This document shows, piece by piece, positions 6,364 through 59,090 of a DNA stretch of 64,000 nucleotides. Numbering within the stretch: position 1 is the stretch's first letter; the number at the start of each line of letters is the position of its first letter. Under the pieces are notes generated by a model. That model was not told the DNA's origin, searched no databases, and saw only the letters and a program-made list of their open reading frames with translations. Origin of the DNA: Sycon ciliatum (taxonomy: Eukaryota; Porifera; Calcarea; Leucosolenida; Sycettidae). The stretch lies in the NCBI RefSeq assembly GCF_964019385.1, contig NC_088654.1, positions 13,551,700 through 13,615,699 of the forward strand, written 5' to 3'. Both the position numbers and the translations under genes were made by a program.

Positions 6364-6418
6364 CCTCCTACTGATAGACTATAACAAAGAGAGGAGAAGA
6401 AGAACACAAAAGATTATA

Positions 6419-7000
6419 ATGATCGAGACAACAAAGGAGGAAGAAAGACAATGTACTAGCAGGGGCTCTCAGGGAGCCTGTGACGGTGAGGCGGGACTAG
6501 CAACACCGACCTAGGGTGTCGGCGTAGCGCTATCCAGCGCACCATGGACGGGATTACGAAACACATGTAAATAGATAAGTGAGGGAGAGGGAGCTGATTA
6601 TGGATATATGGGGTGTTACAGCGAGTCTGCAGCCCGATACCAGCGGCTTTGTTGTAGGTGCTGATGCACGTTGCCATTGGACGACTGGAGAGACGTCACA
6701 AAAGAATATAATGATCGAGACAACAAAGGAGGAAGACAGACAATGTACTAGCAGGGGCTCTCATGGAGCCTGTGACGGTGAGGCGGGACTAGCAACACCG
6801 ACCTAGGGTGTCGGCGTAGCGCTATCCAGCGCACCATGGACGGGATTACGAAACACATGTAAATAGATAAGTGAGGGAGAGGGAGCTGATTATGGATATA
6901 TGGGGTGTTACAGCGAGTCTGCAGCCCGATACCAGCGGCTTTGTTGTAGGTGCTGATGCACGTTGCCATTGAACGACTGAAGAGACGTCAGGCGTGGCGT
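6419..7000. repeat. 292-bp tandem repeat, two units
   Basis: ATGATCGAGACAACAAAGGA begins at 6419 and again at 6711. The two units are almost identical to about 6988, with a few substitutions (CTCAGGG versus CTCATGG). Each unit holds short inverted repeats (CCGAC-CTAGGGT-GTCGG and AGCGCTATCCAGCGC). The ORFs inside are short and lack known motifs. No hammerhead core was found. Confidence 0.8.
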
Positions 7001-10729: not shown

Positions 10730-11319
10730 GTAACGTGATGGAATTTTCTCATCTTGACATGGTGTAACACGAACCTGAATTTCTCATTTGGACCCACTCG
10801 GACACCTCACCAAGTTGGGATATTTAGAAACTATACCTATTTGTCTACCATTCTACTTCATTTCAACGTGTTAGAGAATGTATCACTTTGGAAAACTCAT
10901 TCCGAAAATTTCGAAGTCTTATTTAGTTGTATAGATTTGAACATAATGTTCAAGATCACTTGTTTTCAGCACTGAATGAGGCCAGGGCTGGTTGCTTTGT
11001 TGCTTTTTTAATTCCCAGAACTCGTGGACAGAAGAGGAAGAGCGACGACTTGGGTGTGGCTGCGAAGTCTGCCTGCCCAACGCGAATTGCAATTACACCC
11101 ACACACATACACACACCCTCTTGACCTTGTACTACACACACGCGCGCACACGTGCGAATACATAAAACTATTCGTCTTTATCCTTTTGTGTTTGACATGA
11201 TCACCTTTTGTACTACTCCCTAGTGATTATTTGCATAACATGAATGGCACAGGGATGACTTGTGGCATTGTACGCTGTACACGATTCCACGGTGCCATAA
11301 AAGTAACATTGGTTATAAT
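10730..11319. other. Unassigned sequence upstream of the satellite
   Basis: A short CA-rich stretch (ACACACACGCGCGCACACGT) lies near 11130-11150. Otherwise no repeat or gene was recognised. The satellite starts abruptly after GGTTATAAT at 11319. Confidence 0.4.
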
Positions 11320-11454
11320 AAAAGGGTTTGCTCCCCACACCGGAGCTCGCGCTATTCCGCCGACTTTACTTGACACTTGACTGACTCACGACTGCCATCC
11401 AGAGGACACGAGAAGTCCATCGAACCTTCGACTCGGCAAACCTGCAAGAAAGCA

Positions 11455-11518
11455 CCACTCCCTGCTCAATACACAGTGTTTCGGGGAATTCACCCCTCAT
11501 CAGTTGAGCTTGAGTAGG
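11455..11518 (-). ncRNA. Type I hammerhead ribozyme (first of 17 copies)
   Basis: Minus-strand order: stem I strand GCTCAA (11509-11504); core CTGATGA (11503-11497); stem II GGGG, loop TGAATT, CCCC (11496-11483); core GAAA (11482-11479); a very short stem III CACTGTG closed by the last A of GAAA with the U of the cleavage triplet GTA; cleavage expected after the A at 11470; stem I partner TTGAGC (11469-11464). All essential core bases are present. Beyond 6 bp, stem I has an asymmetric internal loop and then pairs again (CCTACTC with GAGTGG, including a wobble), the kind of loop that docks with loop II in natural hammerheads. The minimal stem III resembles newt and schistosome satellite ribozymes, where dimeric folding can help activity. 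Cleavage is inferred, not shown. Confidence 0.85.
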
Positions 11519-11530
11519 CTGAGGAAGATT

Positions 11531-11570
11531 GTGCCTGAAGAGCACCACTTATATAGTGCTCTCCAGGCAC
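11531..11570. repeat. Conserved hairpin in each satellite unit (first copy)
   Basis: GTGCCTGAAGAGCAC and GTGCTCTCCAGGCAC can pair over 15 positions with one mismatch, around the loop CACTTATATA. It recurs in every complete unit. In the minus-strand RNA it lies just 5' of the hammerhead and could form part of a rod-like fold. The loop also contains a TATATA word, so a promoter role cannot be excluded. Confidence 0.7.
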
Positions 11571-14500
11571 GACCATCACCAGGGATACAAACTTACAGAG
11601 ACGCTCCATTTTCAGCGCGACAAACACCTCGTGAGCACCAGATAGCAGCGTAAGTCAGTGTCGCTCTTGGACGGTGAGACAGACGTCGAGGACCCTCGGT
11701 CATTCGCAACGCTGTCACCTCCAAACCAACTAGTCGCAAGCCCGCGCTGGGCACAACAGAACGAAGTAGTCGTTGCGACCTCGGCGATGATTTGTAAGAA
11801 AAGGGTTTGCTCCCCACACCGGAGCTCGCGCTATTCCGCCGACTTTACTTGACACTTGACTGACTCACGACTGCCATCCAGAGCACACGAGAAGTCCATC
11901 GAACCTTCGACTCGGCAAACCTGCAAGAAAGCACCACTCCCTGCTCAATACACAGTGTTTCGGGGAATTCACCCCTCATCAGTTGAGCTTGAGTAGGCTG
12001 AGGAAGATTGTGCCTGAAGAGCACCACTTATATAGTGCTCTCCAGGCACGACCATCACCAGGGATACAAACTTACAGAGACGCTCCATTTTCAGCGCGAC
12101 AAACACCTCGTGAGCACCAGATAGCAGCGTAAGTCAGTGTCGCTCTTGGACGGTGAGACAGACGTCGAGGACCCTCGGTCATTCGCAACGCTGTCACCTC
12201 CAAACCAACTAGTCGCAAGCCCGCGCTGGGCACAACAGAACGAAGTAGTGGTTGCGACCTCGGCGATGATTTGTAAGAAAAGGGTTTGCTCCCCACACCG
12301 GAGCTCGCGCTATTCCGCCGACTTTACTTGACACTTGACTGACTCACGACTGCCATCCAGAGCACACGAGAAGTCCATCGAACCTTCGACTCGGCAAACC
12401 TGCAAGAAAGCATCACTCCCTGCTCAATACACAGTGTTTCGGGGAATTCACCCCTCATCAGTTGAGCTTGAGTAGGCTGAGGAAGATTGTGCCTGAAGAG
12501 CACCACTTATATAGTGCTCTCCAGGCACGACCATCACCAGGGATACAAACTTACAGAGACGCTCGATTTTCAGCGCGACAAACACCTCGTGAGCACCAGA
12601 TAGCAGCGTAAGTCAGTGTCGCTCTTGGACGGTGAGACAGACGTCGAGGACCCTCGGTCATTCGCAACGCTGTCACCTCCAAACCAACTAGTCGCAAGCC
12701 CGCGCTGGGCACAACAGTACGAATTAGTGGTTGCGACCTCGGCGATGATTTGTAAGAAAAGGGTTTGCTCCCCACACCGGAGCTCGCGCTATTCCGCCGA
12801 CTTTACTTGACACTTGACTGACTTACGACTGCCATCCAGAGCACACGAGAAGTCCATCGAACCTTCGACTCGGCAAACCTGCAAGAAAGCACCACTCCCT
12901 GCTCAATACACAGTGTTTCGGGGAATTCACCCCTCATCAGTTGAGCTTGAGTAGGCTGAGGAAGATTGTGCCTGAAGAGCACCACTTATATAGTGCTCTC
13001 CAGACACGACCATCACCAGGGATACAAACTTACAGAGACGCTCCGTTTTCAGCGCGACAAACACCTCGTGAGCATCAGATAGCAGCGTGAGTCAGTGTCG
13101 CTCCTGGACGGTGAGACAGACGTCGAGGACCCTCGGTCATTCGCAACGCTGTCACCTCCAAACCAACTAGTCGCAAGCCCGCGCTGGGCACAACAGTACG
13201 AAGTAGTGGTTGCGACCTCGGCGATGATTTGTAAGAAAAGGGTTTGCTCCCCACACCGGAGCTCGCGCTATTCCGCCGACTTTACTTGACACTTGACTGA
13301 CTCACGACTGCCATCCAGAGCACACGAGAAGTCCATCGAACCTTCGACTCGGCAAACCTGCAAGAAAGCACCACTCCCTGCTCAATACACAGTGTTTCGG
13401 GGAATTCACCCCTCATCAGTTGAGCTTGAGTAGGCTGAGGAAGATTGTGCCTGAAGAGCACCACTTATATAGTGCTCTCCAGGCACGACCATCACCAGGG
13501 ATACAAACTTACAGAGACGCTCCGTTTTCAGCGCGACAAACACCTCCTGAGCACCAGATAGCAGCGTGAGTCAGTGTCGCTCCTGGACTGTGAGACAGAC
13601 GTCGAGGACCCTCGGTCATTCGCAACGCTGTCACCTCCAAACCAACTAGTCGCAAGCCCGCGCTGGGCACAACAGTACGAAGTAGTGGTTGCGACCTCGG
13701 CGATGATTTGTAAGAAAAGGGTTTGCTCCCCACACCGGAGCTCGCGCTATTCCGCCGACTTTACTTGACACTTGACTGACTCACGACTGCCATCCAGAGC
13801 ACACGAGAAGTCCATCGAACCTTCGACTCGGCAAACCTGCAAGAAAGCACCACTCCCTGCTCAATACACAGTGTTTCGGGGAATTCACCCCTCATCAGTT
13901 GAGCTCGAGTAGGCTGAGGAAGATTGTGCCTGAAGAGCACCACTTATATAGTGCTCTCCAGGCACGACCATCACCAGGGATACAAACTTACAGAGACGCT
14001 CCGTTTTCAGCGCGACAAACACCTCGTGAGCACAAGATAGCGGCGTGAGTCAGTGTGGCTCCTGGACGGTGAGACAGACGTCGAGGACCCTCGGTCATTC
14101 GCAACGCTGTCACCTCCAAACCAACTAGTCGCAAGCCCGCGCTGGGCACAACAGTACGAAGTAGTGGTTGCGACCTCGGCGATGATTTGTAAGAAAAGGG
14201 TTTGCTCCCCACACCGGAGCTCGCGCTATTCCGCCGACTTTACTTGACACTTGACTGACTTACGACTGCCATCCAGAGCACACGAGAAGTCCATCGAACC
14301 TTCGACTCAGCAAACCTGCAAGAAAGCACCACTCCCTGCTCAATACACAGTGTTTCGGGGAATTCACCCCTCATCAGTTGAGCTTGAGTAGGCTGAGGAA
14401 GATTGTGCCTGAAGAGCACCACTTATATAGTGCTCTCCACGCACGACCATCACCAGGGATACAAACTTACAGAGACGCTCCGTTTTCAGCGCGACAAACA

Positions 14501-17500
14501 CCTCCTGAGCACCAGATAGCAGCGTGAGTCAGTGTGGCTCCTGGACGGTGAGACAGACGTCGAGGACCCTCGGTCATTCGAAACGCTGTCACCTCCAAAC
14601 CAACTAGTCGCAAGCCCGCGCTGGGCCCAACAGTACGAAGTAGTGGTTGCGACCTCGGCGATGATTTGAAAGAAAAGGGTTTGCTCCCCACACCGGAGCT
14701 CGCGCTATTCCGCCGACTTTACTTGACACTTGACTGACTCACGACTGCCATCCAGAGCACATGAGAAGTCCATCGAACCTTCGACTCGGCAAACCTGCAA
14801 GAAAGCACCACTCCCTGCTCAATACACAGTGTTTCGGGGAATTCACCCCTCATCAGTTGAGCTTGAGTAGGCTGAGGAAGATTGTGCCTGAAGAGCACCA
14901 CTATATAGTGCTCTCCAGGCACGACCATCACCAGGGATACAAACTTACAGAGACGCTCCGTTTACAGCGCGACAAACACCTCGTGAGCACCAGATAGCAG
15001 CGTGAGTCAGTGTCGCTCCTGGACGGTGAGACAGACGTGGAGGACCCTCGGTCATTCGCAACGCTGTCACCTCCAAACCAACTAGTCGCAAGCCCGCGCT
15101 GGGCACAACAGAACGAAGTAGTGGTTGCGACCTCGGCGATGATTTGTAAGAAAAGGGTTTGCTCCCCACACCGGAGCTCGCGCTATTCCGCCGACTTTAC
15201 TTGACACTTGACTGACTTACGACTGCCATCCAGAGCACACGAGAAGTCCATCGAACCTTCGACTCGGCAAACCTGCAAGAAAGCACCACTCCCTGCTCAA
15301 TACACAGTGTTTCGGGGAATTCACCCCTCATCAGTTGAGCTTGAGTAGGCTGAGGAAGATTGTGCCTGAAGAGCACCACTTATATAGTGCTCTCCAGGCA
15401 CGACCATCACCAGGGATACAAACTTACAGAGACGCTCCATTTTCAGCGCGACAAACACCTCGTGAGCACCAGATAGCAGCGTAAGTCAGTGTCGCTCTTG
15501 GACGGTGAGACAGACGTCGAGGACCCTCGGTCATTCGCAACGCTGTCACCTCCAAACCAACTAGTCGCAAGCCCGCGCTGGGCACAACAGTACGAAGTAG
15601 TGGTTGCGACCTCGGCGATGATTTGTAAGAAAAGGGTTTGCTCCCCACACCGGAGCTCGCGCTATTCCGCCGACTTTACTTGACACTTGACTGACTTACG
15701 ACTGCCATCCAGAGCACACGAGAAGTCCATCGAACCTTCGACTCGGCACACCTGCAAGAAAGCACCACTCCCTGCTCAATACACAGTGTTTCGGGGAATT
15801 CACCCCTCATCAGTTGAGCTTGAGTAGGCTGAGGAAGATTGTGCCTGAAGAGCACCACTTATATAGTGCTCTCCAGGCACGACCATCACCAGGGATACAA
15901 ACTTACAGAGACGCTCCATTTTCAGCGCGACAAACACCTCGTGAGCACCAGATAGCAGCGTAAGTCAGTGTCGCTCTTGGACGGTGAGACAGACGTCGAG
16001 GACCCTCGGTCATTCGCAACGCTGTCACCTCCAAACCAACTAGTCGCAAGCCCGCGCTGGGCACAACAGTACGAAGTAGTGGTTGCGACCTCGGCGATGA
16101 TTTGTAAGAAAAGGGTTTGCTCCCCACACCGGAGCTCGCGCTATTCCGCCGACTTTACTTGACACTTGACTGACTTACGACTGCCATCCAGAGCACACGA
16201 GAAGTCCATCGAACCTTCGACTCGGCACACCTGCAAGAAAGCACCACTCCCTGCTCAATACACAGTGTTTCGGGGAATTCACCCCTCATCAGTTGAGCTT
16301 GAGTAGGCTGAGGAAGATTGTGCCTGAAGAGCACCACTTATATAGTGCTCTCCAGACACGACCATCACCAGGGATACAAACTTACAGAGACGCTCCGTTT
16401 TCAGCGCGACAAACACCTCGTGAGCACCAGATAGCAGCGTGAGTCAGTGTGGCTCCTGGACGGTGAGACAGACGTCGAGGACCCTCGGTCATTCGCAACG
16501 CTGTCACCTCCAAACCAACTAGTCGCAAGCCCGCGCTGGGCACAACAGTACGAAGTAGTGGTTGCGACCTCGGCGATGATTTGTAAGAAAAGGGTTTGCT
16601 CCCCACACCGGAGCTCGCGCTATTCCGCCGACTTTACTTGACACTTGACTGACTCACGACTGCCATCCAGAGCACACGAGAAGTCCATCGAACCTTCGAC
16701 TCGGCAAACCTGCAAGAAAGCACCACTCCCTGCTCAATACACAGTGTTTCGGGGAATTCACCCCTCATCAGTTGAGCTTGAGTAGGCTGAGGAAGATTGT
16801 GCCTGAAGAGCACCACTTATATAGTGCTCTCCAGGCACGACCATCACCAGGGATACAAACTTACAGAGACGCTCCGTTTTCAGCGCGACAAACACCTCGT
16901 GAGCACCAGATAGCAGCGTGAGTCAGTGTCGCTCCTGGACGGTGAGACAGACGTCGAGGACCCTCGGTCATTCGCAACGCTGTCACCTCCAAACCAACTA
17001 GTCGCAAGCCCGCGCTGGGCACAACAGTACGAAGTAGTGGTTGCGACCTCGGCGATGATTTGTAAGAAAAGGGTTTGCTCCCCACACCGGAGCTCGCGCT
17101 ATTCCGCCGACTTTACTTGACACTTGACTGACTCACGACTGCCATCCAGAGCACACGAGAAGTCCATCGAACCTTCGACTCGGCAAACCTGCAAGAAAGC
17201 ACCACTCCCTGCTCAATACACAGTGTTTCGGGGAATTCACCCCTCATCAGTTGAGCTTGAGTAGGCTGAGGAAGATTGTGCCTGAAGAGCACCACTTATA
17301 TAGTGCTCTCCAGGCACGACCATCACCAGGGATACAAACTTACAGAGACGCTCCATTTTCAGCGCGACAAACACCTCGTGAGCACCAGATAGCAGCGTAA
17401 GTCAGTGTCGCTCTTGGACGGTGAGACAGACGTCGAGGACCCTCGGTCATTCGCAACGCTGTCACCTCCAAACCAACTAGTCGCAAGCCCGCGCTGGGCA

Positions 17501-19370
17501 CAACAGAACGAAGTAGTGGTTGCGACCTCGGCGATGATTTGTAAGAAAAGGGTTTGCTCCCCACACCGGAGCTCGCGCTATTCCGCCGACTTTACTTGAC
17601 ACTTGACTGACTCACCACTGCCATCCAGAGCACACGAGAAGTCCATCGAACCTTCGACTCGGCAAACCTGCAAGAAAGCACCACTCCCTGCTCAATACAC
17701 AGTGTTTCGGGGAATTCACCCCTCATCAGTTGAGCTTGAGTAGGCTGAGGAAGATTGTGCCTGAAGAGCACCACTTATATAGTGCTCTCCAGGCACGACC
17801 ATCACCAGGGATACAAACTTACAGAGACGCTCCGTTTTCAGCGCGACAAACACCTCCTGAGCACCAGATAGCAGCGTGAGTCAGTGTGGCTCCTGGACGG
17901 TGAGACAGACGTCGAGGACCCTCGGTCATTCGAAACGCTGTCACCTCCAAACCAACTAGTCGCAAGCCCGCGCTGGGCCCAACAGTACGAAGTAGTGGTT
18001 GCGACCTCGGCGATGATTTGAAAGAAAAGGGTTTGCTCCCCACACCGGAGCTCGCGCTATTCCGCCGACTTTACTTGACACTTGACTGACTCACGACTGC
18101 CATCCAGAGCACATGAGAAGTCCATCGAACCTTCGACTCGGCAAACCTGCAAGAAAGCACCACTCCCTGCTCAATACACAGTGTTTCGGGGAATTCACCC
18201 CTCATCAGTTGAGCTTGAGTAGGCTGAGGAAGATTGTGCCTGAAGAGCACCACTATATAGTGCTCTCCAGGCACGACCATCACCAGGGATACAAACTTAC
18301 AGAGACGCTCCGTTTTCAGCGCGACAAACACCTCCTGAGCACCAGATAGCAGCGTGAGTCAGTGTGGCTCCTGGACGGTGAGACAGACGTCGAGGACCCT
18401 CGGTCATTCGAAACGCTGTCACCTCCAAACCAACTAGTCGCAAGCCCGCGCTGGGCCCAACAGTACGAAGTAGTGGTTGCGACCTCGGCGATGATTTGAA
18501 AGAAAAGGGTTTGCTCCCCACACCGGAGCTCGCGCTATTCCGCCGACTTTACTTGACACTTGACTGACTCACGACTGCCATCCAGAGCACATGAGAAGTC
18601 CATCGAACCTTCGACTCGGCAAACCTGCAAGAAAGCACCACTCCCTGCTCAATACACAGTGTTTCGGGGAATTCACCCCTCATCAGTTGAGCTTGAGTAG
18701 GCTGAGGAAGATTGTGCCTGAAGAGCACCACTATATAGTGCTCTCCAGGCACGACCATCACCAGGGATACAAACTTACAGAGACGCTCCGTTTTCAGCGC
18801 GACAAACACCTCGTGAGCACCAGATAGCAGCGTGAGTCAGTGTCGCTCCTGGACGGTGAGACAGACGTGGAGGACCCTCGGTCATTCGCAACGCTGTCAC
18901 CTCCAAACCAACTAGTCGCAAGCCCGCGCTGGGCACAACAGAACGAAGTAGTGGTTGCGACCTCGGCGATGATTTGTAAGAAAAAAGTTTGCTCCCCACA
19001 CCGGAGCTCGCGCTATTCCGCCGACTTTACTTGACACTTGACTGACTCACGACTGCCATCCAGAGCACACGAGAAGTCCATCGAACCTTCGACTCGGCAA
19101 ACCTGCAAGAAAGCACCACTCCCTGCTCAATACACAGTGTTTCGGGGAATTCACCCCTCATCAGTTGAGCTTGAGTAGCCTGAGGAAGATTGTGCCTGAA
19201 GAGCACCACTTATATAGTGCTCTCCAGGCACGACCATCACCAGGGATACAAACTTACAGAGACGCTCCGTTTTCAGCGCGACAAACACCTCGTGAGCACC
19301 AGATAGCAGCGTGAGTCAGTGTCGCTCCTGGACGGTGAGACAGACGTCGAGGACCCTCGGTCATTCGCAA

Positions 19371-24663: not shown

Positions 24664-25866
24664 GTGGTTGGGCGTTTTAGCCCCACATATGCCCGTTCCG
24701 GGATCATAGAGACCACTGATACATCTCGGGAACCAGCTGAAGTCGACCCATGGCGGAAAGTAAGCGCCAGGGACCTGATGGCCCGAACTGTGCTATTTCC
24801 AGCTCCAAAGGATTTGAAACTCGCCGAGTACGTGAGCTGCCTCGAGCAACACGGAATAGGAGCTGAGCTCATCCTATCTATCCAGGTCAGTTCGGTAGGC
24901 CAATGCAGATTAACGTTCACAGATATCCAGCTTGCCCAGTTAGTCGTGAAGAATGGCTTCCATATCAATGGACAACATATCCTTCCAAAATCCTTGACAG
25001 AAAACACTCATGTTCAGTTGCACATTCACGATGTTCCTGTGTGGGTGTCGGATGGCGCCATTACAGCCGCACTTGCTCCATACGGTACCGTGCAGGGCGC
25101 CATCCGCCACGGTAAACTTAAGGTACGGGACAACGTTGTTATTGCAACCGGAGTCCGTTTTGCAACCTTTGTACTGGGGTCGAATAAAGCCGTACCTTCG
25201 TACGTGAAATCCAGAGACGGGAAAGGCACTTTCCGCGTACATTATAGTGGCCAAAAGCCCACGTGTCGGATTTGCAGCAAGCCAGAGCACCTTGCCAAGG
25301 ACTGCCCTGAGGCCCGCAGTACCACTGCCAGTACCGGTAGTACACAGCAGTCACGGCATTCAACGTCACCTACATGTACAGACACTGAACGCACACGTCG
25401 ACTCCTGTCTGATGTGGTCGCAAACCCAGCCCAGACAGAGCAGCAAAGTAAAGCCCAATCACAATGCCCAACATCCAAGTCTAAGCAGGCTGATCTCCCA
25501 GCAGCTGACAAGAGCGACTCCAGCTCCCCTGAGTCTGAAGAGTTGCCTCTTTCTGCTGATACTGAATCATTGGTCGACAACGAAAGCTTATCCAAGCCAG
25601 AGAACCAGCAGCTGTCTAACTTGCCCTGCGACTCCGACAGGGAGGCCAAGAAGGCAGACAGCGATGCATGTACAGCCCTAGGCCCACAGCTGGGAGGCCA
25701 TAGCGACGATGATCCTGATTCTGGCGGGTGGGAAGTCAACCGATCCAAGCGTTCACGCCATAGCGTCACACCTGATCGGGACCAGAGTGCCACCACCACT
25801 GGATCCAAGCAACGGAAAAAACGGAAACGAAAATCTCCTGAGAGTGGCCAACAAGTCCTGCAGTAA
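24664..25866 (+). CDS. LINE A ORF1 (gag-like nucleic-acid-binding protein)
   Basis: The 400-residue protein is expected to coat the retrotransposon RNA in the RNP. A CCHC zinc knuckle CRICSKPEHLAKDC lies at residues 201-214 (CX2CX4HX4C). It is preceded by a region resembling an RRM-like fold (from about VLFPAPKDL to VRFATFVLG). The C-terminal third is rich in Ser, Asp and Glu, with a basic tail (SKQRKKRKRKS). It ends 54 bp before the ORF2 start. ORF1 is intact, so the element could have been mobile until the LINE B insertion. Confidence 0.85.
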   Translation: MVGRFSPTYARSGIIETTDTSREPAEVDPWRKVSARDLMARTVLFPAPKDLKLAEYVSCLEQHGIGAELILSIQVSSVGQCRLTFTDIQLAQLVVKNGFHINGQHILPKSLTENTHVQLHIHDVPVWVSDGAITAALAPYGTVQGAIRHGKLKVRDNVVIATGVRFATFVLGSNKAVPSYVKSRDGKGTFRVHYSGQKPTCRICSKPEHLAKDCPEARSTTASTGSTQQSRHSTSPTCTDTERTRRLLSDVVANPAQTEQQSKAQSQCPTSKSKQADLPAADKSDSSSPESEELPLSADTESLVDNESLSKPENQQLSNLPCDSDREAKKADSDACTALGPQLGGHSDDDPDSGGWEVNRSKRSRHSVTPDRDQSATTTGSKQRKKRKRKSPESGQQVLQ

Positions 25867-25920
25867 GTCACTTCAGAAATTTACCGCTTTGATACACATT
25901 TACCTTTCATTTTTACACCC

Positions 25921-27316
25921 ATGCCTAGTTCTGTCATTCATCACAATACCGTTAAATGTTCACTCAGACTCCTTTGCACCAATGCATTTAGCTTAGGAAA
26001 CAAGCTAGCTGAGCTCCAGCACACACTGCACCAGCATAATCCCGACATAGCAGTAGTGACGGAAACAAAGTTTTCCTCTGAAACCGTTCCACCATCCGAC
26101 TCCACATTCCCTGGCTACACCACCTTCCGGCTGGATCGAACAGCACGCGGTGGCGGAGTGGCGGTATGGATCAGATCTACACTCCCAGCCATGGTAATTG
26201 ATGAGTTATTTTCTCCACATCACGAACTCATTTGGCTATCCATTCAATTGTCCCCTGGACAAAAGATAGTCTTGGGCGCTGCTTACAGGCCAGGTTCGAC
26301 GGGGCCCAGTGACCTTACGCTCATTAACCATCTCGATGACATCATTCCCTCTGCTCGTGCACTTGGTGCCAACCTCATACTCGCCGGTGATTTTAACGTG
26401 CATAACCGCAATTGGCTCCATAGCTCGAAGACCACACCTGCCGGGGAAGCCCTCGAAGACACATGCACAGCCCACTTTCTCACGCAGCACGTTCAGAGTC
26501 CTACTCGCGGGGATAACACACTCGACCTGGTGATGTCCACGTTCAACTCTCCAGTGACCACGCAGATAATGTCCCCTATTGGTCGATCTGACCACGCTGT
26601 AATTCTTTCGGACTTCACAGGTGTTCTTCCTACCCATGAAGCGGCGGTGCAACGAACTGTCTGGCGCTATGAAAAGGCAGACTGGAACCGCCTCCGATCC
26701 TTTTTCCGCCAGGTTGATTGGTCAACCGTCATTACTGCCAACCCAGAAACTTCGTCTGAGCACGTTACTGCCACAATCATGAAAGCCGTTTCCCAGTTCG
26801 TTCCGTCCAAGACACTGACAGTGAAGTCAACGGATCCGAAATGGTGGACACCTGAGTGTGCAGCCGCCATGAAGGAGAAGGACAAACGCTGGCGCACTTG
26901 GAGGAAGCACCCTCACGATTTTGCACTGAAACATGAGTTTACCCGTTCTGTAAACAATGCTATCGCAGTCCTCGCTAGATCTAGAGTTTCCAAAGAGAAC
27001 AGCCTCAGACATAGCTTGTCGAATGGGTCCCTGAAGGAGAAGGAATGGTGGACGAAGCTAAAGTGTGCTTGTGGCGAGGGTCGGAACACTGACATTCCCC
27101 TGCTCGTTGATAGTGAAGGTTGCGAGAGGGCCACAAGCTATGAGAAAGCGGAGGCTTTCGCACGTTTCTTTTCCCACAAGTGCAGTGTGCAAGGCCGCGA
27201 CCTTACCACGATGGACTCACCGGACACGGCATTCGCTGACGCACCTGCACTAACGACAGTCCACTTTCGCCCGGATGCAGTCCACCGGCTTTTAGCTCGC
27301 CTGGATGCCTCAAAGG
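25921..27316 (+). CDS. LINE A ORF2, N-terminal part (APE endonuclease)
   Basis: This part encodes the apurinic/apyrimidinic-like endonuclease that nicks target DNA. Motifs seen are VVTETK (catalytic Glu at residue 48), GGGVAVWI, AGDFN (residues 155-159) and GRSDHAV (Asp-His at 224-225). A linker and the first RT residues (RLLARLDASKA) follow. At 27311-27317 the frame is cut by LINE B. The remaining codons to the stop at 27519 belong to LINE B in the wrong frame. Confidence 0.85.
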
Positions 27317-27317
27317 C

Positions 27318-29466
27318 AGAGAGCTGCACCAGCTCGAACAGCGTAAACGGCGGCTGCACAGCCGTTGGCGGAAGGATAGGACAAACGGCACACTGTATGC
27401 AGAGTTTAAACAAGCACGTAGCACTGCTCGGAACGCGTATCGGCGCAAGCGAAACGAGTACTTCTCCCGTCAGTGCGAAGAAAATGTGGCCAACCCTAGG
27501 AAGTCTTGGGCCATTCTAAATGCAGTCACTGGGCGTTCACGTCGCCGCCAAGATCCTAGTTGTAGCATCAGCGAGGTGGCCGACACGTTCCACTCCATTG
27601 TCACCGATCCCAACCGTCCTGAACAACTCTGTACCCCGCACGGTCCCGCTGGACCCGTCTCCTTGACCGAACTTGATCCTGTGACTCCTGCTGACGTCCG
27701 ACGTCTCCTTGAGAAGTTGGATGCGCGGAAAGCCACAGGTAGTGACGGCATACCGGGCTCTCTGCTACAGCAGTGTGCTGACTTGCTTTCATATTCTCTT
27801 GCTGTGCTGTTCTGCACCTCGCTGAGGACTGGAACCATTCCATCCGCATTTAAATTGGCGTCTGTCGTGCCACTGTACAAGGCCGGTGACCCATCAGTCC
27901 CCACCAACTATAGGCCTGTATCCCTTCTCCCAATAGTGTCCAAGTTGCTGGAGAGGGTAGTGCAACACCAGTTAGTTCGTCATTTGGACTTGACCCAGGC
28001 ATTACCCGAAACACAATTTGCCTTCCGCAAGAAATGTTCCACGGAAGACGCCCTCTGTGTGCTGACTGATAATCTGCAGAAGGCGAGAGACAGTGGCAAG
28101 ACCACAGGGCTGTGCCTATTAGACATGTCGAAGGCTTTTGATAAAGTGCACCACGACAAGTTAATTCAAGACCTCCTTGCGGTTGGAATTTCTGGAAAAG
28201 CCCTTAATTGGTTCGTCGACTACTTGTCCGGCCGCAAGCAGCAGATCCTCATCTCGCCTTCAACCAGCCCTGCTCTGGCTTGCACCTGCGGAGTGCCCCA
28301 AGGCTCTGTTCTCGGCCCTGTCCTCTTCAGTATATACACACGCGATGTCCCTTTGGTTTCCTCGCCTGTGCCAAGTGTACAATTTGCAGACGACATAGCC
28401 CTGTACGACTCCCAGGCCTCAGCGGCGGAAGCGTCCAGAACCCTCACCACAGCGGCAACTGCTCTGGCCGGTTGGCTGAAGTCCCGAGGCCTTATCTTGA
28501 ACGCCACCAAGAGCCAGGTTCTGACTATCTCTCCCCAGCAGCATGTACAGGAAGTAACAGTCAAAAGCGGCGACTGTCTCCTCCCCTCAGCGTCTTCTGC
28601 GCGCTACCTCGGCGTTCACCTTGACAATCGCCTAGATTGGGACACCCATGTAAACTATGTGGTCACCAAGGTTGCCAAGAAAATTGGCGCCTTGTGGCGG
28701 GCACGCCGAAGCCTATCAAGACGCTCTCGTCAGGTGTATGTGAAGGCGGTCATAATGCCCGACCTGCTTTATGGCTCCTGCTGTTTTTCAGCCGCAATGC
28801 GAGAGGGTCAACTGAAACGACTGCAAACCACGCAAAACAGAGCCATCCGCTGTATCGATGGCAACCCGCCCCGGACAGCCATGCAGCCGCTGCTCACTGC
28901 TCACTCCCTGTACCGTGTCAGCGAGCTCTACAGGCAGAAAATATTGATCACCATCTGGCGGTGCATCAACGCCCGCACCAGCCCTGTGCTCGCCCAGCTT
29001 CTGACCCCGGCACAAGGCACCCCTACCCGCCATCAGCAGTCAAATGGCCTACTAAGCCAGGCAAACCGTAGCCGCCGCGGTCAGCGGAGATTTTCTGTTG
29101 CTGGTGCTCTGCTGTGGAACGCTCTCCCTGGTGAGGTCCGCACAATTACCCGGCTACCTGAGTTTAAGCATGCATGTGTACCATACGCCTGTAGGGAGTA
29201 GTTCGAGTTGCTGCTCATTGCTCTGCTCTCCCTCCCCGTGCAGTTCAGTAACCCGCACGTAGTATCACAGATACATCGTATTCTCTCTCTCCCCCCGTTT
29301 ACCCGCAGTTATTAGTATCCTATTCTCTTACTAACGTTATGTGCTTCCATAGCTTTTACTATGTTCTTCCATAGCCACTTCTAGGCTAAGCCTTCGCCGT
29401 CATTTTATTGGGTCGTCATCCCGTTTGAATGTGCGAAGTGAAATAAAAACCAACCAACCAACCAAC
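27318..29466 (+). mobile_element. LINE B: 5'-truncated LINE inserted in LINE A
   Basis: CAAAGGC at 27311-27317 is repeated at 29467-29473, a 7-bp target-site duplication. Removing the insert and one duplicate restores the LINE A reading frame exactly. LINE B is 5'-truncated within the linker before RT, retains its RT ORF and 3' UTR, and ends in a tandem (AACC)n tail at about 29448-29466 instead of poly(A). That marks a different family from LINE A. Confidence 0.9.
27321..29201 (+). CDS. LINE B ORF2 fragment (reverse transcriptase)
   Basis: Open for about 627 codons from the truncation point. The linker (NEYFSRQCEENVANPRKSW) is followed by RT blocks: ATGSDGIPGSLL, NYRPVSLLPIVSKLLERVV, LLDMSKAFDKVHHDKL, GVPQGSVLGPVLFSIY and FADDIALY (catalytic Asp pair near 28389). 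The post-RT region includes RCIDGNPPRTAM and LWNALPGEVR. It lacks the endonuclease, so it could not retrotranspose autonomously. A decayed relative lies at 33100-34130. Clade is near CR1/L2-like families. Confidence 0.85.
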   Translation, partial: ELHQLEQRKRRLHSRWRKDRTNGTLYAEFKQARSTARNAYRRKRNEYFSRQCEENVANPRKSWAILNAVTGRSRRRQDPSCSISEVADTFHSIVTDPNRPEQLCTPHGPAGPVSLTELDPVTPADVRRLLEKLDARKATGSDGIPGSLLQQCADLLSYSLAVLFCTSLRTGTIPSAFKLASVVPLYKAGDPSVPTNYRPVSLLPIVSKLLERVVQHQLVRHLDLTQALPETQFAFRKKCSTEDALCVLTDNLQKARDSGKTTGLCLLDMSKAFDKVHHDKLIQDLLAVGISGKALNWFVDYLSGRKQQILISPSTSPALACTCGVPQGSVLGPVLFSIYTRDVPLVSSPVPSVQFADDIALYDSQASAAEASRTLTTAATALAGWLKSRGLILNATKSQVLTISPQQHVQEVTVKSGDCLLPSASSARYLGVHLDNRLDWDTHVNYVVTKVAKKIGALWRARRSLSRRSRQVYVKAVIMPDLLYGSCCFSAAMREGQLKRLQTTQNRAIRCIDGNPPRTAMQPLLTAHSLYRVSELYRQKILITIWRCINARTSPVLAQLLTPAQGTPTRHQQSNGLLSQANRSRRGQRRFSVAGALLWNALPGEVRTITRLPEFKHACVPYACRE

Positions 29467-29471
29467 CAAAG

Positions 29472-30992
29472 GCGACTGGACCCGACGGTATTTCCGCTCG
29501 TGTCTTGAAGGAATGCGCCAGAGAACTTGCCAAGCCACTGTGTCAGCTCTTTGCTCTTTGCTTCCAGCACGGAGTCCAGCCACAAATGTGGAAGACTGCC
29601 AGCGTGGTTCCAATCCACAAGCGATCTTCACGATCCGCCCTCAGGAATTATCGTCCAGTTTCACTGCTGAGCATAATCTCTAAGATCATGGAGAGCGTTA
29701 TCAATCGTCAGCTCATGAATCACCTTGAGCGTTACAAACTCCTGACACCCCACCAGTTCGGGTTTCGTCGCCGCCTCGGGACCTCAGATGCGCTACAGGC
29801 TCTACACCACGCCTGGATCACAGCCGTCGGCCGAGGCGGTGCAGCACGTATTCTAGCCGTGGATATTGCCGGAGCATTCGACCGTGTGTCCCATGCTGGC
29901 CTCCTCCACAAAGTCCGCCATCTTGGCATTGGCGGCCCCCTGCATACCTGGCTCTCTTCCTACTTAGGTGGACGGTCCATTCAATGCTTGGTGGGCGGCC
30001 AAACCTCATCGCTGTATACCATATCAGCAGGAGTTCCCCAAGGGAGCATACTCGGCCCTACACTCTTCCTGATTTACGTGAACGACGCCTCAGAGACCCT
30101 GTCACCCGGAGCCCACCTGGAGGCATACGCGGACGATACTACCTTGTACAGCCTGATATCCCTCGACACATCCCCAGCCGACGCAGCATTGAGCCTCCAG
30201 ACTTCTGTTGATCGCTTGCATCAGTGGGGCCGCAGATGGCGCATCTCCTTCGAACCGTCGAAGTCCCAAGCCATGACCGCCACTCTCCGCAGAACCCCCA
30301 ACAATTTGCCTCGCATTGTCTTCGGCGGCACTCCTGTCCTTGAGGAGAAGGCTCTCTCTTTACTTGGAGTGACCTTTGACTCGAAGCTGTCATTCAGCAC
30401 TCATCTCCGGAAGGTTGCCACTCGAGCCAAACAACGCCTGGGCTTCCTGCGCCGTGCAGCGCACATTCTCTCTCCAGCCGGCCGCACCACTGTATACAAG
30501 GCATTTGTTCGACCAGTTATGGAGTATGCCCCCCTCATCTGGATAGGTGCTCCACCCAGCTACCTGCAACGCCTGGATCATATCCAACGCCTTGCTCTGC
30601 GAATCATCGGTCCAGGTGCACTATTACCTAGCCTGGCCATCCGTCGTACTGTTGCCTCGCTTGCCTGCCTATACAAGCTGCATTACCTGCCGGGCCCTCC
30701 GCAGCTGCTCTCTGTTTTGCCACCGCGCCATTTCCCCTCATCCAGCCCCAGAACTCGCAGCGAGCATGGTAGCGTCATTGGCCATGACCACCAGCTCCAA
30801 CACCAGCTGCTTGCATCTGTCCCGCTGGCATTAAAGCGCTCGTTCCCACACTGCAGTATTAGTGACTGGAACTCCCTCCCCGCCGCTCTTCTGTCCCAGC
30901 CTCCCCACAGCAAGGGAATGCAAGCATTCAAAACTAATGTTTATCGCCATCTGCGAAGCACAAACTGGCTCTGGGCAGTCGACTCGCTATGA
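29472..30992 (+). CDS. LINE A ORF2, C-terminal part (reverse transcriptase)
   Basis: It continues the frame interrupted at 27316, starting ATGPDGISARVLKECA. RT blocks are YRPVSLLSIISKIMESV, LAVDIAGAFDRVSHAGL, GVPQGSILGPTLFLIY and AYADDTTLY (Asp pair at about 30132-30137). The tail domain has VRPVMEYAPLIW and LDHIQRLALRIIG. It ends at a stop at 30992. Joined with 25921-27316 the protein would be about 970 residues, usual for APE-type LINE ORF2. Confidence 0.85.
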   Translation, partial: ATGPDGISARVLKECARELAKPLCQLFALCFQHGVQPQMWKTASVVPIHKRSSRSALRNYRPVSLLSIISKIMESVINRQLMNHLERYKLLTPHQFGFRRRLGTSDALQALHHAWITAVGRGGAARILAVDIAGAFDRVSHAGLLHKVRHLGIGGPLHTWLSSYLGGRSIQCLVGGQTSSLYTISAGVPQGSILGPTLFLIYVNDASETLSPGAHLEAYADDTTLYSLISLDTSPADAALSLQTSVDRLHQWGRRWRISFEPSKSQAMTATLRRTPNNLPRIVFGGTPVLEEKALSLLGVTFDSKLSFSTHLRKVATRAKQRLGFLRRAAHILSPAGRTTVYKAFVRPVMEYAPLIWIGAPPSYLQRLDHIQRLALRIIGPGALLPSLAIRRTVASLACLYKLHYLPGPPQLLSVLPPRHFPSSSPRTRSEHGSVIGHDHQLQHQLLASVPLALKRSFPHCSISDWNSLPAALLSQPPHSKGMQAFKTNVYRHLRSTNWLWAVDSL

Positions 30993-34384: not shown

Positions 34385-35867
34385 TAATAGTAAACACAGC
34401 TCGCATCTTCCCTGGACCTGTTAAACAGGAGCAGGGTCAACGCATCTGGCAACAGTGTCAAGCGAAGTTAGTCTATCTCATGCAGCTTGGAGAGCGCTCT
34501 CCACGGAGAGATCCGCTGCCTTCAGGTCGTGCCGAATCGTATCTATCCACCGCAATGGCGGACGGCCACGGTTTTTTAAGTCATTTGTCTTGATTGATAG
34601 CTCCAGTGCTTGGAACGAGGCGGATTCTGGACCTTCTCGCACCACATGGCCAAACCACAGCAGCCTGCGTCGCCGGCATGCGGCACTAACTGGAGATTGT
34701 TTTGTTTCTGTGTATAAGTTGTTATTGGTGATGCGTTGCGGGTAGACAATCTGCAGCAGTATGAATAGCTTCCTCCGTTGCCATTTGTCCAATTTGTCGT
34801 TGAGTAATTTGGACAGAGTCCACAATCCGCAATTATATAGAAGTATCGGCATTATGTGGCAGTTAAACATACATAGTCGGAATTGAAAGGAATGCCGTCT
34901 CCAAGAAATCGAACCAAACGACCTGTTTGCTTTTGAGATTCTCATGTCCACGTCTTCTGCAGAGCCCAATAGAGAACCCAGGAGTGTGATTGATCTCCAT
35001 TCGTTGCTGTTTCTCGCAACATCAACATATTCAGTTTTCTGTGTATTGAGCTTGAGATTGTCCTCGATAAATATAGGTTCACACTCAGCAGCAAGAGCCT
35101 TCGCCTCATCGTCATTTCGGTTATGCAGAGTAGTATCGTCAGCATACTGCGTTGTTGGAGCAGGCATTGGTGAACGAATTGTGCATCTTTCCCTCATCTT
35201 GCGCATTGTGCCTTCTGCATATGTTATGAACATAATAGGGGACATCGGGTCTCCCTGGACCACTCCGATGTTATTTGGGAATGGTGGACTCAGGGAGCCA
35301 CTCAGCTTGATCCTGGCTGTCGTGTTGGAAAGTAGTGACTTGATAGTTGTTGTGCTGATATCTGCTTCCTCTAACCTGTCAAGTGCTGTGGTGCGAATTA
35401 TAGTGTCAAAAGCATCAGAGAAATCTAGGAGGGTGACGGAATATGTCCAGTTGCCAAGCAAGGCGCGCTCACACAGCGACCTTGTGTAAAATACATCATC
35501 AGTGGTTGAGCGAACTGGACGAACACCAGGCTGGGTTTCAGAGACATAAACTGTGATGTCATCCGTGTTACGTTTAGTAATACCTGACGTCAGCACCTTT
35601 CTCACTACAGAGAGTAACATGATCGTGGCTTGCCTAGTTTGTATACAGGTACCACCAAATCACTGCGCATATCGTCAGGGCAATAACCACACTCTGTATT
35701 GCGTTGAAGAAAGAGGCTAGCCAAGGACTGAGGAGGTCCTTAGCAGCTCGTAGCATTTCCGCACTCGGATTCCATCGGGTCCCGCGGCGCCTCCTTTTTT
35801 TGTTTACTGATTGCTGAAGTGACTTCTTGGGTGATAAACGGCAATTCCTCATCATTGATATCTTGCG
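34385..35867 (-). mobile_element. 5'-truncated RTE-like LINE inserted into the MITE
   Basis: CCACTAA flanks the insert at 34378-34384 and 35868-35874, a 7-bp target duplication. The element is on the minus strand and starts inside the RT region. The first 250 bp contain frameshifts (remnants TQEVTSAISKQKKEAP, SAEMLRAAKDLLSPWLASFF and DDMRSDLVVPVYKLG in different frames). The rest is one open frame. Confidence 0.75.
34478..35620 (-). CDS. RTE-like reverse transcriptase fragment
   Basis: 380 residues. RT motifs: VTLLDFSDAFDTI, VVQGDPMSPIMFITYAEG and QYADDTTLHN (catalytic Asp pair intact). The C-terminal RTE signature RRRLLWFGHVVREGPE is followed by NRGRPPLRWIDTIRHDL. The natural start is lost; the Met used here is internal. 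It resembles 59910-61181 only at family level. Confidence 0.8.
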   Translation of the reverse strand: MLLSVVRKVLTSGITKRNTDDITVYVSETQPGVRPVRSTTDDVFYTRSLCERALLGNWTYSVTLLDFSDAFDTIIRTTALDRLEEADISTTTIKSLLSNTTARIKLSGSLSPPFPNNIGVVQGDPMSPIMFITYAEGTMRKMRERCTIRSPMPAPTTQYADDTTLHNRNDDEAKALAAECEPIFIEDNLKLNTQKTEYVDVARNSNEWRSITLLGSLLGSAEDVDMRISKANRSFGSISWRRHSFQFRLCMFNCHIMPILLYNCGLWTLSKLLNDKLDKWQRRKLFILLQIVYPQRITNNNLYTETKQSPVSAACRRRRLLWFGHVVREGPESASFQALELSIKTNDLKNRGRPPLRWIDTIRHDLKAADLSVESALQAA

Positions 35868-52837: not shown

Positions 52838-53219
52838 CTATAAAATTAATCTTACCTTTACATCCGAAAGGGTTTAACCCTTTTTAAGAGAAACAGGAAA
52901 ATGAAGTTGAAGACACAGAGCTCTCCTTCTCACCACCACCACCATCAGCACATAGATGATGACACAGCAACGCCATAGCTCGATGGCGACGTACGTTTCG
53001 TACGGAGCTTCATACGGAGCTTGACTCGGGACACCATATTATTTATCAACCATAAGGACAGTAGCTTGACTCGGGAGAATGAAGTTGAAGACACCACTGC
53101 AGCTGTACTTACGGTGGATAAATATGGTATCCCGAGTCAAGCTCCGTATGAAGACATCCAAGAGGAAGATTGCCTAATGACTCCCGCGTCAAGCTCCGTA
53201 TGAAGACATCCAAGAAGAA

Positions 53220-53262
53220 GATTGCCTGATGAGTCCAGCGGGGCGAAACGTACGTCGCAAAC
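53220..53262 (+). ncRNA. Type I hammerhead ribozyme, 352-bp family, copy 1
   Basis: Stem I strand GATTGC (53220-53225); core CTGATGA (53226-53232); stem II GTCC, loop AGCG, GGGC (one U-G pair); core GAAA (53245-53248); minimal stem III CGTACG; cleavage triplet GTC with expected cleavage after 53256; stem I partner GCAAAC (four pairs, then mismatch). The catalytic core is complete. The weakened stem I suggests this copy is less active than copy 2. Confidence 0.8.
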
Positions 53263-53571
53263 GAAACTATGCCGTTCCTGTGTCATCATCTATGTGCCAT
53301 GTGCTACTTGATGTACCAGCCTGCTTTGCCGGATACCACCAGCCATGCATCGACCAGGCGCCAGGCGCGAACTGATGGTGGTGGTGGTGAGAAGGAGAGC
53401 TCTGTGCCTGAACTTTGCAGCCTAGAGAGCGTGTGTGGGCAGGCGTGTGTTTACCGCCATATTGCCGGGTGTGTCTTTACCACCATATTTATCAACCATA
53501 AGTACAGCTGCAGTGGTGACTTCAACTTCATTCTCCCGAATCAAGCTCCGTATAAAGACATCCAAGAAGAA

Positions 53572-53615
53572 GATTGCCTGATGAGTCCAGCGGGGACGAA
53601 ACGTACGTCGCAATC
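53572..53615 (+). ncRNA. Type I hammerhead ribozyme, 352-bp family, copy 2 (canonical)
   Basis: GATTGC (53572-53577) pairs fully with GCAATC (53610-53615) as stem I. The core CTGATGA (53578-53584), stem II GTCC, loop AGCGG, GGAC (all Watson-Crick), core GAAA (53598-53601), a two-to-three-pair stem III within ACGTACGT, and the triplet GTC (cleavage after 53609) meet every hammerhead rule. Cleavage at this and the first copy would release a 353-nt RNA. Confidence 0.9.
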
Positions 53616-53859
53616 GAGCTATGTCGTTGCTGTGTCATCATCTATGTGCCATGCGCTACTTGATGTACCAGCCTGCTATGCCGGATACCGCCAGCCATGC
53701 ATCGACCAGGCGCCAGGCGCGAACTGATGGTGGTGGTGGTGAGAAGGAGAGCTCTGTGCCAGAACTTTGCAGCCTAGAGAGCGTGTGTGGGCAGGCGTGT
53801 GTTTACCGCCATATTGCCAGGTGTGTCTTTACCACTATATTTATCAGCAACAGGAAATG

Positions 53860-57488: not shown

Positions 57489-57945
57489 CGTCAGATACGG
57501 ATAGCGCCAGGCGTGACACAAACAAACACACAAACAAATACCAAATTAAAGCTGTGTGGACCCTGGCTAGCGCCAGACGTTACTGAAGTAACGTCTTCTG
57601 CATAGGTACGGGAATATATATTTTAATAATCATAATGATAATGTGCACACGGTATAATATTACAGTATGTGTTGATGAATGTGCAGAACTCCAAAAATAT
57701 GAGAGAGGCGGCCGCATGTACTCATATTCATACCAATAGGCAAAGCTCATGTACCTTCGCTATACTTCCGGAAATATTTTCGACGTATAGTTATCTGCTT
57801 AAAACTGCATCGAATAGAATGCAATAGGAATCGGAAAAGGAAGAAAAGGAGAAAGAGAGAACGAAGGAAATACAGAGGAAAGGAGAGACAGAGATCCGGG
57901 AGCTAAAGTGCACGTTTATTATTATTATTATTATTATTATTTTAC
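57489..57945. other. Unassigned; ends in (TTA)n
   Basis: 57545-57610 (GGACCCTGGCTAGCGCCAGACG, then TACGGGAATATA) shares words with 55225-55290. A purine-rich tract is at 57830-57900 and (TTA)n at about 57917-57942. Confidence 0.4.
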
Positions 57946-59048
57946 CCGCGTGCTAGTTTGTACGTGAAGTGTGTGGGTTACAGTGAGGGCTGCGTCCCAC
58001 CCGCCTGTGTGGATTCACAGGAAGTGTGAGTTACGAAGTCTGAAGAAAATGTTGAACGGCCTCTGCTGGGATGACGACTACACCATAGCTCAGTGGTTAG
58101 AGCATCGCTGGCTACAAGCGAGGGTCCCTGGTTCGAGTCCTGGTGGTGACAGTCAATTTTTTCTTCAGACTTTTCCCGTTTGTCTCTTTCCCTCAAACCA
58201 GTCAATATTTTATGACTTGGGGCTCCCCGCGTGCTAGTTTGTACGTGAAGTGTGTGGGTTACAGTGAGGGCTGCGTCCCACCCGCCTGTGTGGATTCACA
58301 GGAAGTGTGAGTTACGAAGTCTGAAGAAAATGTTGAACGGCCTCTGCTGGGATGACGACTACACCATAGCTCAGTGGTTAGAGCATCGCTGGCTACAAGC
58401 GAGGGTCCCTGGTTCGAGTCCTGGTGGTGACAGTCAATTTTTTCTTCAGACTTTTCCCGTTTGTCTCTTTCCCTCAAACCAGTCAATATTTTATGACTTG
58501 GGGCTCCCCGCGTGCTAGTTTGTACGTGAAGTGTGTGGGTTACAGTGAGGGCTGCGTCCCACCCGCCTGTGTGGATTCACAGGAAGTGTGAGTTACGAAG
58601 TCTGAAGAAAATGTTGAACGGCCTCTGCTGGGATGACGACTACACCATAGCTCAGTGGTTAGAGCATCGCTGGCTACAAGCGAGGGTCCCTGGTTCGAGT
58701 CCTGGTGGTGACAGTCAATTTTTTCTTCAGACTTTTCCCGTTTGTCTCTTTCCCTCAAACTAGTCAATATTTTATGACTTGGGGCTCCCCGCGTGCTAGT
58801 TTGTACGTGAAGTGTGTGGGTTACAGTGAGGGCTGCGTCCCACCCGCCTGTGTGGATTCACAGGAAGTGTGAGTTACGAAGTCTGAAGAAAATGTTGAAC
58901 GGCCTCTGCTGGGATGACGACTACACCATAGCTCAGTGGTTAGAGCATCGCTGGCTACAAGCGAGGGTCCCTGGTTCGAGTCCTGGTGGTGACAGTCAAT
59001 TTTTTCTTCAGACTTTTCCCGTTTGTCTCTTTCCCTCAAACCAGTCAA

Positions 59049-59050
<2 letters not shown>
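57946..59050 (+). repeat. Tandem array of four tRNA-derived SINE units (281-bp period)
   Basis: Units start at about 57946, 58227, 58508 and 58789 and are almost identical. Each has a leader (CGTGCTAGTTTGTACGTGAA, then CCACCCGCCTGTGTGGATTC), then A-box TAGCTCAGTGG (58086 in unit 1), B-box GGTTCGAGTCC (58130), then TGGTGGTGACAGTC and CAGACTTTTCCCGTTTGTC. AAGTCTGAAGAAAA before the tRNA part and TTTTCTTCAGACTT after it are perfect inverted 14-mers. Units join through CAATATTTTATGACTTGGGG, and the array is bounded by (TTA)n on both sides. Anticodon-like ACA is present, but arm mismatches and the 3' body argue against a working tRNA. Confidence 0.9.

Positions 59051-59090
<40 letters not shown>
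59049..59090. repeat. (TTA)n microsatellite
   Basis: About 14 perfect units following the last SINE unit, in the position of a SINE tail. Confidence 0.9.

Follow-up and report, generated by a model that had tools for sequence, protein, structure and literature searches.

In the 64,000-nucleotide stretch of the genome of the calcareous sponge Sycon ciliatum analysed here (the window; contig NC_088654.1, C13:13551700-13615699), a 479-bp unit carrying a predicted hammerhead ribozyme on the minus strand is repeated in tandem. The most probable reading is that this array forms one locus of a metazoan retrozyme, a non-coding element that is not autonomous but relies on a Penelope-like element (PLE) present in the same genome, and that its self-cut monomers circularise. 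The same unit is dispersed over the genome as insertions made of two head-to-head arms, whose outer ends lie at two different unit positions, one of each, between short target duplications. One of these two ends shares its terminal motif with PLE copies, and all copies in both arms of an insertion derive from a single monomer. Transcription of the tandem units, cutting by the ribozyme, circularisation of the product and insertion by the PLE enzyme would account for this anatomy.

Repeat unit and predicted hammerhead ribozyme

A preliminary description, made from the letters of the window, had presented the array as a satellite with seventeen minus-strand hammerhead cores, all of them unchanged, recurring every 479 bp (478 in three units). 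Both counts are borne out: the cores are identical in 17/17 copies, each between GCTCAA and TTGAGC, and among the 16 complete units, measured from cleavage site to cleavage site, 13 are 479 long and three 478. The term satellite was right as to the tandem array, which is real (period 479, 98% matches according to Tandem Repeats Finder), but incomplete, since the unit occurs, too, as a retroelement scattered over the genome with insertion scars of the Penelope type. Unit positions count from u1, the base directly 3' of the predicted cut, up to u479, the A of GTA. The array has a GC content of about 0.54, and no reading frame of at least 130 amino acids inside it appears in the list of open reading frames (ORFs), so that a frame for reverse transcriptase (RT) and GIY-YIG endonuclease is absent from the array; RT/GIY-YIG frames are found elsewhere, in elements like the PLE copy L079. 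A TATA-box-like sequence, TATATAAG, is intact in 13 of the 16 units and lacks one A in the other three.

This array is the longest among the loci examined (the other 39 have 0.1-4.8 tandem copies per arm). None of its 30 variable columns falls inside the 46-nt core, which has a probability of about 0.05 by chance alone. Fifteen of the 30 are intermediate, their variants being common to scattered units, the pattern expected of unequal exchange, so that the array, which probably began as one insertion arm, has probably grown since by this process (Table 1).

A type I hammerhead is characterised by the core CUGAUGA...GAAA...UH with A15.1-U16.1 (core numbering), and all these conserved nucleotides are present in 17/17 copies, which read CTGATGA-GGGG-TGAATT-CCCC-GAAA-CACTGTG-TA. 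Stem I is formed by GCTCAA/TTGAGC (6 bp) and continued past an internal loop (AA/AGG) by ACTC/GAGT and CC/GG, stem II by GGGG/CCCC (4 bp), closed by loop II (TGAATT), and stem III by 3 bp (ACA/TGT) with a 3-nt CTG loop. The scan with the Rfam type I covariance model (RF00163), put forward in the preliminary description as a check, failed to recover them at three settings: 0/17 cores at the gathering score, none at E<=1 over 9 kb and no match at E<=10 on one 101-nt piece of the array. A covariance score is a detector and stands outside the definition of a type I hammerhead. A genome-specific model, built from 13 other hammerheads of the same genome (none from the 479-bp family), recovered all of these 17 cores with a score of 23.7 bits (E=2.2e-4, a rough value), and its only further matches in the window up to E=5 were two of its own training sequences.

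In the predicted fold of the monomer, stems I and II form and stem III is absent, whereas two molecules are predicted to form a double hammerhead with a common stem III of 8 pairs around a U-U mismatch (-49.3 kcal/mol for two copies vs -19.3 kcal/mol for a single one), a difference that makes multimers the likely cleavage substrate. The ribozyme reading of the preliminary description, in which a long transcript of the array would process itself, is thereby kept, with multimers rather than monomers as the probable cutting form. Dimer-dependent cutting would let multimers be cut and the monomer circle survive. Hammerheads of the axolotl are cut far better as dimers (PMC7229834), and cleavage of PLE hammerheads as dimers has been reported, according to the title of a cited paper.

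Table 1. Features of the window (positions 1 to 64,000), with the basis of each assignment
Feature	Position	Strand	Basis or remark
479-bp tandem array of the retrozyme unit, 16.8 copies	11316..19370	-	Tandem Repeats Finder
A-type outer end of array (u154)	11316	-	Same position as A ends of dispersed insertions
Array 5' end (u240)	19370	-	Second arm and target duplication not found there
Putative reverse-transcription start A (u154), one unit, equivalents in others	11795	-	Outer ends of dispersed insertions
Putative reverse-transcription start B (u189), directly after ...CTACTTCGT	11760	-	Outer ends of dispersed insertions
TATATAAG, TATA-box-like, 44 nt upstream of CTGATGA	12506..12513	-	Putative promoter
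Hammerhead copy 1	11464..11509	-	Core match and covariance; cut predicted between 11470 and 11469
Hammerhead copy 2	11943..11988	-	Core match and covariance
Hammerhead copy 3	12422..12467	-	Core match and covariance
Hammerhead copy 4	12901..12946	-	Core match and covariance
Hammerhead copy 5	13380..13425	-	Core match and covariance
Hammerhead copy 6	13859..13904	-	Core match and covariance
Hammerhead copy 7	14338..14383	-	Core match and covariance
Hammerhead copy 8	14817..14862	-	Core match and covariance
Hammerhead copy 9	15295..15340	-	Core match and covariance
Hammerhead copy 10	15774..15819	-	Core match and covariance
Hammerhead copy 11	16253..16298	-	Core match and covariance
Hammerhead copy 12	16732..16777	-	Core match and covariance
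Hammerhead copy 13	17211..17256	-	Core match and covariance
Hammerhead copy 14	17690..17735	-	Core match and covariance
Hammerhead copy 15	18169..18214	-	Core match and covariance
Hammerhead copy 16	18647..18692	-	Core match and covariance
Hammerhead copy 17	19125..19170	-	Core match and covariance
Arms of the second hammerhead family (352-bp unit), first minus, then plus	52900..53850		Hammerheads 53220-53262, 53572-53615

Dispersed insertions

The genome (538 Mb, 313 contigs) was searched with one unit, giving 216 matches (about 150 of them listed) from the 40 candidates that were scored out of 896, and 39 loci outside the window were taken around the best genome-wide matches among those listed, not picked by their ends. 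Most of these loci have a minus arm first and then a plus arm, with the 3' ends outward. The outer ends cluster at two unit positions, most often u154 (A) and u189 (B), and in two-ended insertions an A end is paired with a B end in 31/31 cases (A is the left end in 14 of them, B in 17), A+A and B+B being absent; from independent ends, this pairing has a probability of about 5e-10. The 31 insertions sit in 30 of the 39 loci, as L051 carries two. Ends were called by a script and pairs were compiled by hand: 29 pairs come from script ends, and in L033 and L060 (second arm of 9-13 nt) the ends were read by eye. L047, a duplicate of L045, was dropped from the pair count, L068 entered no count, and L039 and L051b, which do not differ in their target sequence, could represent a single event, in which case the count would be 30. 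An extra unpaired arm is present in both L048 and L050.

The flanks share 9-14 bp in 19/19 insertions outside microsatellites; mismatched flank pairs share 5.3 bp on average, and 12 of 342 reach at least 9. Another 18 of 37 insertions adjoin AAT/ATT repeats, and their duplications cannot be read with confidence because of this neighbourhood. A paralogous empty site in the L033 locus contains one copy of AATAAACAAGAA, which is present twice in L039 and L051. At the centre of the insertions, the arms abut or overlap in 26 of the 31 joins (the remaining five have 1-33 extra bases), with a mean microhomology of 2.0 nt vs 0.67 for random joins, and the joins are scattered over the unit. The family thus combines the features of a metazoan retrozyme, a tandem non-coding hammerhead repeat dispersed with target duplications (the comparison drawn in the preliminary description holds in this respect), with those of PLE insertions: 3' ends 30-40 nt apart, head-to-head arms and a target duplication.

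Inner 5' ends of plus arms recur at about u262-276 in L029, L030, L031, L045, L046, L047, L048, L063 and L064 (u268 in L030, L046 and L064, for instance), and this region is perhaps a preferred polymerase stop. The two copies of the duplicated locus L045/L047 have plus arms of 4.76 and 3.76 copies, indicating that copy number shifts after insertion. A tiny two-armed insertion, of about 61 and 37-42 nt and limited to the start regions, is found at L025:840-945 and L026:835-930, and is likely the product of an abortive copying event.

Single-monomer origin of the arms

In 24 two-armed loci, 41 variants are present in all copies of both arms, no variant is fixed in at least two copies of one arm while missing from the other, 66 are found in a single copy and four are of other, intermediate kinds. 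Fifteen of the 41, in 7 loci, are private when compared with all 39 loci and the window units. These counts omit L043, L045-L048, L050 and L051, and the divergence, core-change and join statistics omit L043, L045, L047, L048, L050 and L051, because of multiple insertions, extra fragments or duplicates. For a variant to occupy every copy in the two arms, the sequence must have gone through one monomer that was then read several times, and so each insertion was made by repeated copying from a single monomer. A circular template would explain this pattern simply, which makes it genomic evidence for a circular intermediate. Divergence amounts to 0.42% within arms, 0.51% between arms and 1.37% between insertions. 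Across 33 dispersed loci, 8 of 194 change events affect the hammerhead core vs about 20 expected (10%; p=0.0016), and one deletion in L038 accounts for three of the eight.

Penelope-like elements of the same genome

PLE copies with a GIY-YIG domain are present in the genome. The frame of L079 is open for 807 codons; its Pfam match is to GIY-YIG only, the RT domains having been read from relatives. Nine two-arm pairs of GIY-YIG PLEs (L079, L080 and seven from the best 40 of 541 candidates) were compiled, a possible tenth (C12:9665840-9669640) being left out as its minus match is without an end, and one tailed and one tailless end are found in 9/9. The tail has up to about 36 nt and finishes either at CTACTTCGT or no more than about ten bases from it, the other end stopping earlier. 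Target duplications, of about 9-13 bp by eye, accompany seven of the nine pairs; of the other two, one sits inside an ATT repeat and one is without a duplication.

The B end of the retrozyme and the PLE end have identical last nine bases, CTACTTCGT, terminal in four PLE copies, and each lies about 35 nt beyond A. When the last 60 nt of both are aligned, taking the best of 479 offsets, the score is 43 vs 20.7 +- 5.0 for shuffles, and 0/2000 shuffles (1/2000 in a second run) are as good, a test made after the motif was noticed. A blastn comparison of the retrozyme with the PLE and hammerhead loci gave no stretch in common with PLEs, the sole matches being L025 and L026, that is, the two tiny retrozyme insertions.

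This footprint resembles that described for PLEs in other animals. A purified PLE of the anole cuts and extends both strands in vitro, using two internal RNA start sites that bound a 30-40-bp tail (PMC11167929), and in rotifer PLEs the arms lie head-to-head, a tail may be present on one side and the duplications measure 8-10 bp (PMC3846280). In the terminal repeat of L079 (L079:4360-4460), TATATAA is followed by CTGATGA...GAAA, in the same order as in the retrozyme. A hammerhead is not claimed there, as Rfam gives no match and stem III does not fit.

Two other hammerhead families of this genome show how far the footprint extends. In one window copy (with a rearranged minus arm) and one partial copy, L022, both inspected by eye, the 352-bp family, whose copy at 53572-53615 is Rfam-positive, shows AACAGGAAA on both flanks and a distance between the outer ends of about 37-41 nt, measured along the unit. 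In the 226-bp family (L009-L027), nearly all arms end at one place, u10-16, and it probably uses another mobiliser. The A/B footprint is therefore limited to some families, a similar one being read in the 352-bp family; its absence from the 226-bp family means that the A/B pair neither characterises all hammerhead repeats nor results from the mapping. The 226-bp arms stop some 13 nt past the cleavage site, in many cases within TA-rich repeats, and the stem III of the 352-bp family is palindromic (ACGTACGT).

Proposed mechanism and alternatives

Minus-strand transcription of the tandem units, perhaps driven by the TATA-like box just upstream of each ribozyme, would produce multimeric transcripts. 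From these, the hammerheads would release monomers of 479 nt, most likely by pairing up as double hammerheads with a common stem III, as folding predicts, and a host ligase would presumably turn the monomers into circles. A PLE RT/GIY-YIG endonuclease, suggested by the matching footprint and end motif, would then cut an AT-rich target on both strands, and copying would start at u154 on one target strand and at u189 on the other, the two sites found paired in the insertions. Both polymerases would travel round the same circle, yielding tandem copies of the one monomer to which the variants point, and the joining of the two cDNA ends, mostly at short microhomologies, would leave the observed head-to-head arms between short target duplications. 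In its fullest form, this model has a closed RNA circle copied into the chromosome by a pair of PLE enzymes acting on both nicked strands, with start sites strictly one per strand and rolling polymerases, and sees retrozymes as stripped-down PLE terminal repeats; we lean towards it with modest confidence. If it is true, a template that has no 3' end becomes usable through internal initiation, a property already known from PLEs. The A+B rule is a clear prediction for PLE biochemistry, and, as to which enzyme inserts animal hammerhead retrozymes, the scars described here point to a PLE of the same genome.

Several observations weigh against dependence of a self-cutting, circular retrozyme on a PLE. 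Eight of the 39 loci are not two-ended insertions: L030, L036, L049, L053, L056 and L064 are single-ended, L062 runs into Ns and in L043 the 3' ends face inward. L053, L054 and L056, beside microsatellites, are without a target repeat, and the window array has an A end only, also without a target duplication. The frame of L079 has no early Met and may be 5'-truncated. Without its last nine bases, the 60-nt alignment is equalled by 113/2000 shuffles; this remainder is not significant, so the sequence link comes down to a short motif where copying starts, and it is the footprint that carries the case. In vitro, the start sites of the anole PLE were not seen to differ between the top and bottom strand, and this PLE inserts hammerhead-dead RNA equally well (PMC11167929), data that support neither the one-per-strand rule nor the need for a ribozyme. 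Transcription, cleavage and circles are predictions from the DNA sequence, and homogeneous arms could also stem from an uncut transcript of another homogeneous locus.

This last point belongs to an alternative which keeps the PLE machinery and takes as template the uncut linear multimer of a tandem locus, the hammerhead being dispensable for transposition. The insertion of hammerhead-dead RNA agrees with it, as do arms that read intact through the cleavage site, where only 1 of 60 inner ends lies. An uncut multimer would nevertheless pass on mixtures, because old copies gather copy-specific mutations, such as the 66 single-copy variants; the window array, with half of its variable columns intermediate, is of this mixed kind, whereas the variants restricted to one locus fill all copies of both arms, indicating a one-monomer bottleneck. 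We therefore regard this explanation as unlikely, though still deserving of some weight. Snap-back self-priming, suggested for the inverted arms of rotifer Penelope elements (PMC3846280), would also give a head-to-head arrangement, and predicts a palindromic centre; inner ends lie within 20 nt of each other in 0/30 joins, where 2.6 would be expected, and two distinct sites form the outer ends, which makes this origin highly improbable.

The mobiliser could instead be a LINE-type (long interspersed nuclear element) RT, as for short interspersed nuclear elements (SINEs), given that LINE-like frames are present in the window and that LINEs, too, give target duplications. Two internal starts, one per end, match the PLEs of this genome, however, and no such LINE footprint was met, though no dedicated search was made for one; moreover, a circle would offer no 3' end for priming. 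A LINE thus seems a very unlikely agent. Least probable of all, to a degree that we consider negligible, is that unequal exchange spread an ordinary satellite in which the hammerhead-like sequence is a passenger. The variants that scattered units of the window array have in common and the lack of a target duplication there fit such a satellite; short dispersed copies on many contigs, with fixed 3' ends and two arms, do not. The empty site and the target duplications contradict it, and so does the deficit of changes in the core.

Comparison with known systems

Metazoan retrozymes, with their circles and ligation, have been described by Cervera and de la Pena (2020, PMC7229834), and PLEs were regarded as strong candidates for their mobilisation, a proposal that rests on type I hammerheads, tandem occurrence and hosts in common. 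Later reviews still treat it as a proposal (PMC7761336, PMC11722881). The Sycon element resembles the metazoan non-LTR (long terminal repeat) retrozymes of that account in having short tandem repeats that are non-coding and contain type I hammerheads, in its large target duplications, in the absence of LTR, primer-binding site and polypurine tract, and in its coexistence with PLEs, but it is longer (479 nt vs about 170-400) and richer in GC (about 54% vs <45-50%) than the descriptive ranges given in PMC7229834. Neither a sponge host nor two-armed A/B insertions are met in the same account. A term search of PMC4918200 and PMC3088659, which is not a survey, gave no poriferan host of retrozymes, and a sponge host thus appears to be new. 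Insertion scars linking retrozymes and PLEs were not found in the literature searched by title and abstract opening, which was mostly open-access and did not include bioRxiv preprints.

With PLEs that have a pseudo-LTR (pLTR), a tail and an inverted pLTR, the retrozyme shares head-to-head arms, AT-rich targets, a 30-40-nt tail at one end, a TATA box and the association with hammerheads (PMC3846280, PMC11167929), the duplications being of 8-10 bp in rotifer PLEs (PMC3846280) vs 9-14 shared bases here. Unlike PLEs, it is without coding capacity, has a 479-nt unit and builds both arms from tandem copies of one monomer. As in the satellite hammerheads of newt and axolotl (PMC7229834), a weak stem III would favour a dimeric ribozyme in multimers, although the Sycon stem III has 3 bp with a CTG loop and the copies bear PLE-type insertion scars.

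SINE/LINE pairs consist of a non-autonomous RNA that has a 3' signal in common with its autonomous partner, and the same may hold here. Unlike in these pairs, the template of the retrozyme is probably circular, with internal starts and the use of both target strands.

Other repeats and frames

Beyond the hammerhead families, the window is a transposon-rich region with LINE-like RT frames, recognised by reading ORFs, at 24664-30992, 34478-35620, 48194-50697 and 59910-61181. Two head-to-tail copies of a 292-bp unit, 98% alike and with no hammerhead found in them, lie at 6405-6990. At 57945-59057, four tandem units of 281 bp, each with a tRNA-like sequence, are located inside a (TTA)n microsatellite, and repeats with a 281-bp period also flank retrozyme insertions, e.g., L032. 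Finally, L069 (contig C291, 17.5 kb) contains a bacterial-looking frame of the UvrC type, named by reading its sequence, and this contig is probably a symbiont or a contaminant in the assembly.

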